From Acidobacteriota bacterium (GTDB taxonomy: Bacteria; Acidobacteriota; UBA6911; RPQK01; JAJDTT01), in contig JAPPLF010000039.1 in NCBI GenBank assembly GCA_028874215.1, positions 1 through 64,000 of the forward strand: a stretch of 64,000 nt of DNA, read 5' to 3'. Positions 8,294 through 12,057 of the stretch are shown one piece after another (the first letter of the stretch is position 1; the number at the start of each line of letters is the position of its first letter). The notes beneath the pieces were generated by a model. It was not told where the DNA came from. It made no database searches and saw nothing but the letters and a program-made list of their open reading frames with translations. Position numbers and translations under genes: made by a program.

Positions 8294-9568
8294 ATGAAGA
8301 AGTTCTGGGAAAGACTGCCGGCTCTGGCCGGTTTCGGAACTCTGCTTGCCTTCCTGTCCCTATTGTTCGTGGCCTCAATCGGAGGGTTTCCTGACGGTCG
8401 GAAAATTCCGTTAGCCGGCAGCGTCCTCAACGATCGCGGCTGTTACGTGCCCGGCTGTCACTTTGCTTCCGGCAGCACGTTGAACGAGGCCGGTTCCGTC
8501 TCCTTCAATAATCTGCCCGATAGTTTCGTTCCTGGCGAAACTTACGACTTGGGGATCACGATCACTGGAGGCACGACGTACGGGTTCCAGGTGGCAGCTG
8601 TTTTCTCCGATGGCACGCAGGCGGGCGCCCTTACGGCCGTCACCGAAGACACCACCGTGGTCGACGGGGCGGGGCCGCAGATACTGACTCATACCAACAA
8701 CCTGGATGCCGGGATGGTCGACTTTCAGTGGACGGCGCCGATGGATCCGAAAGAGACAAGCGTGACATTGAGGGTGGCGTCCAATTCCGCCGACGGTAAC
8801 GACAGGCCGACGGGAGATGCGATCAACACTCTCGATGTCTCAATTCCCACCGACAGCGAGATCAATGTCCCGAGTCCCGTCGAGTTGACCGAAAGGCTCC
8901 ATTTCGCGCAATTCGCCAATGGGGCCGGGATTGTCAGCCAGATCTCTCTTCTGAATGGTATTGGGGAAGCTGTCAACGCGAAGCTGGAACTACGGGGCGG
9001 CGATGGGGCTCCCCTGAATGTGGTTCTGAACGGGGAGATGGTTTCGGGAGAAACCGAGGTCTTCAGTATTGCAGGCGGTGGAGGCGCAGTTTACGCAAGC
9101 GACGGCCAGGGGCCGGTCGTTGCAGGATCTTTGACTGTTCATTCCGACGGGCCGCTGAGCGGCGTTGTCTTGTTCGAGGGCGCAACTCTGGGTGTGGCCG
9201 GGGTCGGCAATAGTGAGCCGCTGGCCGGGTTTCGAGCGCCTGCGGAAAACCGTACCGGTGACAAGTTCATCAGAACGGGTGTGGCTGTGATGAATCTGGA
9301 CGCCGAGGAAAAGACCCTTCAAGTGAGGCTCGTCGACCTGGATGGCGCTGAGACAGGAACGGGAACAGTGGCCACAGATCCGTTGTCTGGAAATGGACAC
9401 ATGGCCCGCTTCATCGAGGAGTTCAATTGGGACGATCCTGTCCCCGACTTGACAGATTTCCAGGGTGTTCTGGAGGTCGTTCCGTCACATGGCCAGGTGG
9501 CGGCTACAGTCCTGCGTATAAGTTCCGGAAATAATATGGCAAGCCTTCCCGTTGCACCGATGCAATGA
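8294..9568 (+). CDS. Exported Reeler-domain-like protein with a CX4CH motif
   Basis: A 424-residue protein. A hydrophobic N-terminal segment (about residues 12-30) serves as signal or anchor. It is followed by CYVPGCH, a CX4CH pattern that could bind c-type heme, and then a beta-sandwich stretch (SVSFNNLPDSFVPGETYDLGIT, GFQVAAVFSDGTQAG) matching bacterial Reeler-type domains, which in other proteins follow a CxxCH motif. The C-terminal ~220 residues are beta-rich, Gly-rich and repetitive (VAGSLTVHSDGPLSGVVLF). The ATG follows GAGGATC. The stop overlaps the start of the next gene by four bases, so the three genes up to 11393 form one translation unit. Base composition looks somewhat lower in GC than its neighbours. 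Confidence 0.75.
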   Translation: MKKFWERLPALAGFGTLLAFLSLLFVASIGGFPDGRKIPLAGSVLNDRGCYVPGCHFASGSTLNEAGSVSFNNLPDSFVPGETYDLGITITGGTTYGFQVAAVFSDGTQAGALTAVTEDTTVVDGAGPQILTHTNNLDAGMVDFQWTAPMDPKETSVTLRVASNSADGNDRPTGDAINTLDVSIPTDSEINVPSPVELTERLHFAQFANGAGIVSQISLLNGIGEAVNAKLELRGGDGAPLNVVLNGEMVSGETEVFSIAGGGGAVYASDGQGPVVAGSLTVHSDGPLSGVVLFEGATLGVAGVGNSEPLAGFRAPAENRTGDKFIRTGVAVMNLDAEEKTLQVRLVDLDGAETGTGTVATDPLSGNGHMARFIEEFNWDDPVPDLTDFQGVLEVVPSHGQVAATVLRISSGNNMASLPVAPMQ

Positions 9569-10236
9569 CAACGTGTTCGCGAGTCCTTCATACGAGCGGG
9601 GGACTTACCCTGAAGGTTCCGCGGAGGGTCGTCTCGATCGCCCTCGCAACGACGCTTCTGCCGGCCACCCTCGACTTGGCCGCCGCATGGCCGGCAAGTG
9701 CCGAACAATCCTGGAATCTTACGTCCGGGAATGTGCGGGTCCGCTGCCGCTTCACCGTCGGCGGCAGCTTCGACGCCGCCACGTCGGCGATTTCCGGAAC
9801 CTTGCGGCAAACCGGGCCCGAAGCGTCCTATGCGGGCACGCTCCGGGTCGATCTCGTCCCCCTCGACACCGGCATCGAACTGCGCAACAACCACCTGCGG
9901 GAGACCTATCTGGAGGTGGCCCGCGGTGAGCGGTTCCGGCACGCCGCCCTGACCGGCATCGAACTGGCTGTCCCGCTCCCGCCGGACGCCGCCCGCCACA
10001 AGACGCCGTTCTCGGGAACGTTGTCGCTGCACGGAGTCGAAAGGGCCATCGCGGGCAAGGCGGAACTGAGCCGGCGCGACGGGCGGCTTCACGTGCAGGC
10101 GGCGTTCTCGTTGAGCCTGAAGGTATTCGACATCCCCCCTCCCCGCTATCTGGGCGTCGGTGTGCGCGACGAGGTCGGAATCCTCGTCACCTTCGACGCG
10201 GTCAGCGGCAACTCTCCCGCCGGTGGACCCCAATGA
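9565..10236 (+). CDS. YceI-like periplasmic protein
   Basis: About 223 residues. An N-terminal export signal ends near PASA, followed by the beta-barrel lipocalin-like YceI fold: SWNLTSGNVRVRCRFTVGG at the start, TLRVDLVPLDTGIELRNNHLR in the middle (the usual SI..D..RD.HL region), then the GTLSLHGVERAI segment. YceI proteins bind long isoprenoid or amide-type lipids in the periplasm. The ATG overlaps the preceding stop (ATGA), with no separate ribosome site, so translation is coupled. Its own stop overlaps the next start in the same way. This gene sits between two proteins with heme-type motifs, which suggests a shared envelope function. Confidence 0.85.
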   Translation: MTTCSRVLHTSGGLTLKVPRRVVSIALATTLLPATLDLAAAWPASAEQSWNLTSGNVRVRCRFTVGGSFDAATSAISGTLRQTGPEASYAGTLRVDLVPLDTGIELRNNHLRETYLEVARGERFRHAALTGIELAVPLPPDAARHKTPFSGTLSLHGVERAIAGKAELSRRDGRLHVQAAFSLSLKVFDIPPPRYLGVGVRDEVGILVTFDAVSGNSPAGGPQ

Positions 10237-11393
10237 TCCGTACGGCAACGTTGCGCCGAAGCTTGGGTACGGGTCTCGCAGCCGCCGCTCTCCTCGGCGG
10301 TTGGGGCATGACGCCTGCATCCGCCGAACCGATTTTTCTCTCCAAGCAGTACCCGCGATGCACGGCCTGCCACTACTCGGCATCGGGCGGTGGGTTGCTC
10401 ACGCCTTACGGGCGGTCGCTGTCGCGGGAGGAGATCTCGACTTTCGGCCGGCGCCCAGCGGCCGGCGCGGCATCCCCGGGAGGGACCCGAAGCGAGGAAT
10501 CCTTCCTGTACGGCGCCATTGGGAGCGACTCCCCCCTGCAACTCGGCCTCGACCTCCGGCCCTCGCACGTGAGCGTCACGGTGCCCGGCATCGCCATCGA
10601 CGACCGCAATTTTCTGATGAACCTCGATCTGCAGGCCGCCTGGCAGCGAAACCGATGGACAGCCTACGGGAGCGTTGGTCGAAAGCCCGTAAGGGGCGGT
10701 GAGTTCGTCTCCTACGAACATTGGGTGGCCTACCAGGTCAGCGATGCGCTGAGCGTGCGGGGAGGGCGCTTCCTGCCGGCCTACGGCGTTCGGTTCGCGG
10801 ATCACACCTCATTTACACGCGAGGGGCCGGGCCTCGCGCAGGACGATCAGGTCTACGGGGTCGAGGTGGGGGTGTCGCTCGATCGATCGCTGCTGCAAAT
10901 GTCGGTCGGTCCGGGCCGCGCCGATTCCCTCATCGACGGCAAGGGCCGGGCAGCATTCACCGTGAGCGGCCGGTACCAGTTCGACCTCACCCCGCGCACC
11001 GTCGTCGCGGGGTCGCTGCTGTACCGCGGCGCGACGGATTTCAGCCCCCGAAGCACGCACACCGGCGTGTCCTTCGGATACGCCCCGGTGCGCTGGCTGG
11101 TCACCTGGACCCACGCCGACCGCCGGCTCCAAAGTCTGGCCCGGAGCGATCGGGCGTACATAGTCGCCAACCAGACGTCGGTGGAAGCGTTCCGGGGGAT
11201 CTGGCTGAGAGTGTCGCCGCAGGTGCGCTGGACCGACCAGGACCCTTGGGGTGAAGTGCGCCGCATGGTGTACGGCCTGGACTTCTATCCGCGGACCCAC
11301 TGGCACGTGAGCCTGTCGTACTACCGGGACCACTTCCGGTTCGGCGACCTGCACACGAAAACGCTTCTGGCACAGCTCCACCTCTATCTGTAA
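10233..11393 (+). CDS. Outer-membrane beta-barrel protein with N-terminal CxxCH
   Basis: A 386-residue exported protein. The signal peptide ends at PASA. The mature N-terminus carries CTACH, a c-type heme attachment motif, in the context YPRCTACHYSASGGGLLTPY. The remaining ~320 residues alternate polar and hydrophobic positions with many Tyr, Trp and Arg and end in aromatic/Leu residues (LLAQLHLYL), as expected of an outer-membrane barrel of roughly 14-16 strands. It is the third gene of an ATGA-linked trio with a Reeler-like protein and YceI. A heme motif and barrel in one chain would place redox chemistry at the outer membrane. The function is not known to me. Confidence 0.75.
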   Translation: MIRTATLRRSLGTGLAAAALLGGWGMTPASAEPIFLSKQYPRCTACHYSASGGGLLTPYGRSLSREEISTFGRRPAAGAASPGGTRSEESFLYGAIGSDSPLQLGLDLRPSHVSVTVPGIAIDDRNFLMNLDLQAAWQRNRWTAYGSVGRKPVRGGEFVSYEHWVAYQVSDALSVRGGRFLPAYGVRFADHTSFTREGPGLAQDDQVYGVEVGVSLDRSLLQMSVGPGRADSLIDGKGRAAFTVSGRYQFDLTPRTVVAGSLLYRGATDFSPRSTHTGVSFGYAPVRWLVTWTHADRRLQSLARSDRAYIVANQTSVEAFRGIWLRVSPQVRWTDQDPWGEVRRMVYGLDFYPRTHWHVSLSYYRDHFRFGDLHTKTLLAQLHLYL

Positions 11394-11430: not shown

Positions 11431-11676
11431 ATGATCAAGGCAAACATCGCGCAAGCGAAAGCCCGTCTCTCAGAGTACCTCCAGAGCGTCGAACGGGGTG
11501 AGACGGTGGTCCTGTGTCGACGCAATGTGCCCATTGCCGAGATCCGACCCCTTCCAAAGCTGCCCATGAAGAAACGTCCGATCGGTACCGATCCGGGCCT
11601 GAAGGTGCCTGACAGTTTCTTCGAGCCGCTTCCTGAGGACATCCTCCGGGCTTTCGGAAGTGGTGGCGAGTCGTAG
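11431..11676 (+). CDS. Phd/YefM-type antitoxin
   Basis: About 81 residues. The N-terminal fold (IKANIAQAKARLSEYLQSVERGETVVLCRRNVPIAEIRPL) is a standard Phd/YefM DNA-binding domain. The C-terminal tail (PDSFFEPLPEDILRAFG) is the toxin-masking segment. It should neutralise the PIN-domain product of the next gene and repress the pair. The ATG at 11431 is preferred to the in-frame TTG at 11425. The toxin gene directly downstream has a damaged 5' end, so this antitoxin may be without an active target. Confidence 0.85.
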   Translation: MIKANIAQAKARLSEYLQSVERGETVVLCRRNVPIAEIRPLPKLPMKKRPIGTDPGLKVPDSFFEPLPEDILRAFGSGGES

Positions 11677-12057
11677 TGAGAGGTCGACACCTGCACTTTC
11701 CTCTGGTTGGCGGGTAACGATCCTCGTCTTACGGCCCGGGTTCGTGCTGCTTTCGTGAATCCGGCGAACGCCGTCTACCTCAGCTCGCTCTCTGTGTGGG
11801 AAATCGCCATCAAGCATCGACTGGGGCGGCTGCCGCTACCCGAATCGCCCGGACGCTACGTGGTCAACCAACGGGAGCAACTGCAGATTGAATCGTTGGC
11901 CTTCGACGAAGCCTGCGCGGCACATGACACTCAGCTACCCCCGTATCATTCCGACCCGTTCGACCGGGGTCTGGTGTCACAGGCGATCCTCCACGGGATG
12001 ACCATCGTGACGCCTGATCCGATAATTACCCGCTATCCCGCACCCACACTCTGGTGA
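11676..12057 (+). pseudogene. VapC (PIN) toxin with broken 5' end
   Basis: The PIN-domain frame reads DTCTFLWLAGNDPRLT from 11686, then SLSVWEIAIKHRLGRLPLP, a late acidic stretch and the usual ending PTLW. This is a VapC with the first catalytic Asp at 11686. In that frame a TGA lies at 11677 and no ATG or GTG is present before the Asp. A well-placed GTG at 11676, overlapping the antitoxin stop, is one base out of frame. One extra base between 11679 and 11685 would explain everything. Translation from the in-frame TTG at 11707 would lose the catalytic Asp. It is either a real inactivating frameshift or a sequencing error. Confidence 0.75.

Follow-up and report, generated by a model that had tools for sequence, protein, structure and literature searches.

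A 64,000-nucleotide window of an Acidobacteriota genome (contig JAPPLF010000039.1 of assembly GCA_028874215.1) carries three consecutive genes that code for a Reeler-fold protein of the choice-of-anchor-V family (gene 1), a YceI-family lipocalin (gene 2) and a protein in which a CxxCH heme motif is joined to a predicted outer-membrane barrel (gene 3). The conserved core of this locus is two genes, the YceI gene and the heme-barrel gene, and not three. A preliminary description of the DNA had seen in it a small redox module of three genes, and this stands in part: redox genes are neighbours of such barrels in relatives (Rieske proteins, PSCyt1-like lipoproteins, and a cytochrome c beside the barrel of locus L024), but gene 1 is there in this genus only.

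Conservation of the YceI-barrel pair

Gene 2 passes the gathering cut-off of the YceI family PF04264 (40.4 bits against 23.7, E 5e-10), in agreement with its earlier assignment, and is the sole YceI match found in this genome. The genome-collection scan was seeded with the YceI protein only and not with the barrel, so that conservation of the CxxCH motif was tested without bias, and it returned 29 loci. A CxxCH-barrel gene adjoins the YceI gene in all 21 Acidobacteriota species found through the YceI subfamily of gene 2. These species are the Acidobacteriota loci of the YceI scan together with the window and genome G151; loci L025, L026 and L027 duplicate contigs of G003, G002 and G001, respectively, and were counted once. 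Two of the loci (L035 and L040) are truncated at contig ends, which leaves 19 of the 21 with a heme motif that could be read directly. Gene calls in the relatives are readings of open reading frames, and most of the relatives are metagenome bins.

The YceI-barrel order is accompanied by an NTGA overlap of the two genes at every one of the 17 loci that have it. A swapped, barrel-first order is seen at four loci (L023, L038, L040 and L053), and the barrels of this type share 18-19% identity with gene 3. The control set was made up of the 30 best ordinary YceI loci fetched from this phylum, none of which has a CxxCH-barrel neighbour. The 21 species share ancestry and do not stand for 21 independent events; a functional link between YceI and barrel is nevertheless suggested by the swapped order, the low identity of the swapped-type barrels and the exactness of the overlap. 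The closest relative outside the genus (L028), in which genes 2 and 3 are 77-83% identical to those of the window, has no gene 1 adjacent to the pair, and a conserved three-gene unit outside the genus is ruled out. A paper describing a pair of YceI and a CxxCH barrel was not found in the literature searched, which covered few subscription journals or preprints.

A heme-motif barrel with a Cyc2-like predicted architecture

Gene 3 scores above no family cut-off in Pfam or NCBIfam. Its AF2 model, made from a 21-sequence alignment, has 16 strands between residues 102 and 384 (pTM 0.69), and the Foldseek matches of the model are porins (AlgE, OmpM1, OmpU and others), so that a CxxCH motif and a barrel are found in a single chain, as first proposed. 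The 21 aligned barrels comprise 19 of the YceI pair and the related barrels of L024 and L045, which align with gene 3 over 326 columns in a profile comparison (E 1e-20). All 21 have C43, C46 and H47, and mean pairwise identity is 0.65 in the heme domain versus 0.43 in the barrel. Conservation of the motif among barrel homologues and of gene order elsewhere, both of which the preliminary description had put forward for checking, are thus borne out.

The closest known counterpart is Cyc2, a monoheme mini-cytochrome fused to a 16-strand porin and defined by the motifs AXPXFAR[QK][TY] and PXL (PMC8406198). Gene 3 resembles it in having a single N-terminal CXXCH after the signal peptide, a length of 386 aa (at least 365 aa in Cyc2) and a predicted 16-stranded porin in the same chain, and the heme domains are in register over 43 columns (A-x-P-x-F ... 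C-x-x-C-H ... L-T-P-[FY]-G-R; hhalign, 93% probability, E 4e-7). However, neither defining motif is present. Gene 3 has AEPIFLSKQ, with A, P, F and K in register and lacking AR and T/Y, and FAR is absent from all 21 aligned barrels; in place of PXL four residues after CXXCH it has YSASGGGLLTPYG, with a GGG insertion. The barrel of gene 3 could not be aligned, hhalign pairing the heme domain only, which is a weak test since the Cyc2 porins are themselves poorly conserved. Its partner is YceI and not a periplasmic cytochrome c, and no link to iron is shown. Six Cyc2 relatives (L054-L059) were fetched from plasmids by means of a consensus peptide built from the published Cyc2 motif; a c-type cytochrome gene adjoins cyc2 in most of these loci and none adjoins gene 3, and no Cyc2 locus paired with YceI was found. 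Gene 3 is therefore ruled out as a canonical Cyc2 on the defining motifs. As read from its sequence, it has the predicted architecture of Cyc2 and a related mini-domain, yet is not classed as Cyc2. The earlier remark that no such module is known stands for the combination, within the literature searched, but not for the fusion of a monoheme cytochrome to a 16-strand porin, which Cyc2 already represents.

Other barrels are more distant. In MtrAB, PioAB and MtoAB a multiheme cytochrome is plugged in a large, separate porin, whereas gene 3 has one CxxCH and 16 predicted strands in a single chain. Gene 3 has no match to PF19089 and an hhalign probability of 0.2%, by which it is ruled out as a DUF5777 barrel. 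A plasmid tblastn search with gene 3 gave no match. L014 was rejected as a relative of gene 3, as its small CxxCH protein ends in a calcium-repeat-like tail and has no barrel.

Gene 1, the variable third gene and the layout of the locus

Gene 1 passes the cut-off of the NCBIfam family choice_anch_V NF041895 (81.9 bits, E 4.6e-23, cut-off 42) and matches Pfam Reeler weakly, under the cut-off (E 0.006). Its AF2 model (pLDDT 82) has a signal helix at residues 2-27, is poorly defined around CYVPGCH and continues with a beta-sandwich at residues 68-186 and more beta domains; it matches the reeler domains of F-spondin (2zot, 2zou and 3coo) with a Foldseek probability of 1.00 and TM by target of 0.61-0.67. 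The CX4CH motif ahead of a Reeler-like domain, noticed earlier, is confirmed. Residues C50, C55 and H56 are invariant among 13 homologs, and C(x2 or x4)CH is kept by every gene 1 homolog scanned across the phylum, the family being present in 26 of 199 phylum genomes. No C-terminal sorting or anchor signal was found in the sequence or model of gene 1, which ends in MASLPVAPMQ with no C-terminal membrane segment. We note that the copies of its C-terminal domain elsewhere in the genome are often in tandem, within very long open frames.

The family of gene 1 is widespread and has a barrel association of its own. A gene 1 homolog adjoins a DUF5777-barrel gene in five genomes (G007, G008, G011, G018 and G022), and a CxxCH Reeler-like domain is itself fused to the DUF5777 barrel in four (G006, G012, G028 and G030); the DUF5777 model used drew four of its nine sequences from these same loci, and Pfam confirms four of the fusions. 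Among the loci collected, choice-of-anchor-V-DUF5777 fusions with a CxxCH Reeler-like domain lie at L072:1554-2873, L073:83-1444 and L096:1321-2853 and in L076, L077, L078 and L079, and they often adjoin a second CXnCH Reeler-like gene of the gene 1 type. At L098:3-1427 a DUF5777 barrel carries a fused Temptin-like CxxCH mini-domain (CATCHINPAGGGPRNDFG), and a CX4CH protein resembling gene 1 is encoded next to it. Gene 1 is thus like other choice-of-anchor-V proteins in that a CxxCH or CX4CH is always there and relatives stand beside or are fused to a barrel; it differs in that pairing with a Cyc2-like barrel and YceI is seen in this genus only. No description of choice-of-anchor V or of DUF5777 was found in the literature searched.

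Outside the genus other genes take the third position. A Rieske gene lies directly upstream of the pair at L036, L037, L039 and L041, a PSCyt1-like lipoprotein is encoded downstream of the heme-barrel at seven loci (L029-L034 and L042), and a cytochrome c and a CX4CH lipoprotein adjoin the L024 barrel. The PSCyt1-like lipoproteins read CVVHHG, CVSHHG, CVAHHG or CVEHHG (L029:7762-8256, L032:7716-8213, L034:7698-8210, and the same place in L030, L031, L033 and L042) where their relatives carry CX4CH, the second heme cysteine being replaced by histidine; this CxxHH is possibly a single-cysteine heme attachment or a metal site. An ortholog of this lipoprotein was sought in the genome of the window, and matches lay inside long frames only.

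The YceI search also returned a cluster in Ignavibacteria and Bacteroidota (L049-L051), in which a CX4CH PSCyt1-like lipoprotein, YceI, a DUF5777 barrel and a Temptin_C CxxCH protein are encoded side by side, with parts of it in L044, L048 and L052. It has the same kinds of part beside YceI (CX4CH protein, barrel, CxxCH mini-domain) but it encodes the mini-domain and the barrel in two genes, and this barrel shows no relation to gene 3; no paper on the cluster was found in the literature searched. The three genes of the window would thus appear to represent one way of combining a set of parts (CX4CH protein, YceI, barrel and CxxCH mini-domain) that recur together elsewhere in other arrangements.

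The layout of the locus is set out in Table 1. The order of the three genes is the same in four genomes of the genus, being kept in one syntenic block in G001-G003, and dN/dS values of 0.24-0.47 in the genus comparison indicate purifying selection on all three. Both ATGA junctions of the window read as originally reported. The overlap of genes 1 and 2 is absent in G001 and is a GTGA after TAG in G002. Gene 1 is frameshifted in G002 (L016 near 8494, which is L026 near 4880; also in CATOST010000022.1), reflecting an assembly error or a pseudogene. The L025 record is labelled Candidatus Aminicenantes, its genes are 87-98% identical to those of the window and its contig equals one of G003; judged on sequence, it is probably a mislabelled bin. 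Right after gene 3, window positions 11431-12057 hold a small antitoxin-like open reading frame (ORF) and then a PIN-domain ORF (PF01850, 25.2 bits against a cut-off of 23.6), which by their sequences look like a toxin-antitoxin pair; a partial second PIN copy is near by in G002 (L016:3445-3627).

Table 1. Features of the three-gene locus, in positions of the window.
Feature	Position	Strand	Description or basis
Gene 1	8294-9568	+	ORF, 424 aa; choice-of-anchor-V / Reeler-fold protein with CX4CH motif and repeated C-terminal domain
CYVPGCH (CX4CH) heme-type motif, gene 1 residues 50-56	8441-8461	+	sequence
Reeler-like beta-sandwich, gene 1 residues 68-186	8495-8851	+	AF2, Foldseek
C-terminal domain, gene 1 residues 199-424	8888-9565	+	25 further copies elsewhere in this genome
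ATGA overlap, genes 1/2	9565-9568	+	gene 1 TGA and gene 2 ATG share bases; not conserved in the genus
Gene 2	9565-10236	+	ORF, 223 aa; YceI-family lipocalin with signal peptide, subfamily motif LDTGIELRNNHLRETYLEV
ATGA overlap, genes 2/3	10233-10236	+	gene 2 TGA and gene 3 ATG share bases; NTGA kept in 17/17 loci
Gene 3	10233-11393	+	ORF, 386 aa; CxxCH mini-cytochrome fused to predicted 16-stranded porin
Heme-motif domain, gene 3 residues 32-72 (EPIFLSKQYPRCTACHYSASGGGLLTPYGRSLSREEISTFG)	10326-10448	+	conservation; in-register alignment with Cyc2 heme domain
CTACH motif, gene 3 residues 43-47	10359-10373	+	C43, C46 and H47 invariant 21/21
Predicted 16-stranded outer-membrane barrel, gene 3 residues 102-386	10536-11390	+	AF2, Foldseek

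Possible functions of the pair

A plausible scenario, to which we give slightly less than an even chance, is that translational coupling links genes 2 and 3 and that their products form a lipocalin-coupled monoheme redox conduit in the outer membrane. Architecture, adjacency and overlap are observed; how heme is attached, where in the membrane the protein lies, which ligand is involved and which way electrons move is our inference, as follows. Heme c would be attached to the CxxCH of gene 3 by the cytochrome c assembly machinery of the genome, which has three PF01578 matches, and would lie at the periplasmic mouth of the barrel or inside it, as proposed for Cyc2. YceI would carry a redox-active isoprenoid (quinone) or other lipid through the periplasm and exchange electrons with this heme, and a third, exchangeable redox protein (Rieske, PSCyt1-like lipoprotein or gene 1) would connect the pair to other carriers, although gene 1 may instead sit at the surface. 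Electrons may either leave the cell for an acceptor or enter it from a donor. We favour this scenario because YceI proteins carry isoprenoids, ubiquinone-8 or others being bound in many crystal structures (PMC9113575), because they are tied to heme proteins in two known systems, BcnA-LcoA and Cbp2D, and because the assembly proteins are present. In Cbp2D a YceI domain is fused to c-type cytochrome domains (PMC8981238); Cbp2D/Cbp2E resemble the proposed pair in that a YceI-like, ubiquinone-binding domain (X158) works with c-type heme domains in redox chemistry outside the cytoplasm, but theirs is one secreted, carbohydrate-binding polypeptide, a candidate electron donor to LPMOs, that lacks a barrel.

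Several observations weigh against a redox conduit. Most of the phylum lacks the pair, which therefore has no general role there, and the gene beside the pair varies, being gene 1 in this genus and a Rieske or PSCyt1-like gene in relatives; the PSCyt1-like partner shows CxxHH and not CxxCH in all sequences displayed, and the four swapped-order pairs (L038, L040, L053 and L023) have no obvious redox neighbour. No second heme ligand is conserved in the 21 sequences, where C43, C46, H47 and Y59 are the only invariant residues among likely ligands; M129 is kept in 17 of the 21 barrels, and not in all, as is H191, a residue of the long loop that joins strands 5 and 6. The heme region of the AF2 model is of low confidence (pLDDT 36-59), and the model, holding no cofactor, cannot place the heme.

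The precedent of BcnA (YceI) and LcoA (cytochrome b561), which protect envelopes from lipid peroxyl radicals (PMC9113575), suggests a possible alternative use of the same parts. YceI would carry reduced quinone or scavenge lipid radicals like BcnA, and the heme-barrel would recycle the load of YceI or remove lipid peroxides at the outer membrane, helped by the Rieske protein, the PSCyt1-like lipoprotein or gene 1. Both systems pair a YceI lipocalin genetically with a heme membrane protein, YceI being the conserved partner here too, and a heme with no conserved sixth ligand could be catalytic. The pair would be a stand-in for BcnA-LcoA in which an outer-membrane heme protein replaces the inner-membrane cytochrome b561, but that protein is a b-type cytochrome, whereas gene 3 is a predicted outer-membrane barrel with a c-type motif. 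No cytochrome b561 gene was found among the neighbouring genes scanned, gene 2 being flanked by the choice_anch_V gene and the barrel; peroxide removal needs no membrane-spanning 16-strand barrel, and Rieske partners fit electron transfer better. We regard such an antioxidant role as unlikely.

Less probable again is that gene 3 binds no heme, its CxxCH forming a disulfide or metal-binding porin plug and YceI acting as periplasmic carrier for some lipid or small substrate that the pair transports. Invariance of both cysteines and the histidine in 21 of 21 barrels goes beyond what a disulfide needs, the register match is to Cyc2 proteins that count as c-type cytochromes, and there are Rieske and cytochrome neighbours as well as the assembly genes. 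This reading would account for the shortness and poor modelling of the mini-domain, its resemblance to the GGG..N.FG motif of Temptin_C proteins, the loss of the second cysteine in the neighbouring PSCyt1-like family and the unconserved second axial ligand. That gene 3 is an Acidobacteriota iron oxidase of the Cyc2 type, fed with electrons by dissolved extracellular Fe(II), we consider very improbable: the shared architecture and strand number and the aligned heme domain, with its AxPxF and TP[FY]GR, have to be set against two unmet defining motifs, barrels that do not align, a c-type cytochrome gene missing from beside gene 3 and the lack of any Cyc2 locus found with YceI.

Returning to the lipocalin-coupled conduit, an extended form of it is possible, though we incline against it. 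The pair would stand for a separate class of conduit, so far undescribed: a YceI loaded with quinone, held at a fixed ratio by translational coupling, would feed a single heme in a 16-strand porin and work with interchangeable Rieske, cytochrome-like or Reeler-fold heme partners. It would further belong to a wider modular system of CX4CH protein, YceI, barrel and CxxCH mini-domain, employing different barrel families in Acidobacteriota and Bacteroidota.

If the conduit is real, a lipocalin would bring quinone or lipid carriers to the outer membrane and couple them to a monoheme porin, cytochrome-porin fusions would extend beyond iron oxidation, and YceI, a widespread family of uncertain role, would gain a defined redox partner. 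The YceI-barrel NTGA pair with AEPxFLSKQYxRCxxCHxSxxGGG then provides a searchable marker with which little-studied Acidobacteriota could be screened for a possible redox pathway of the envelope.

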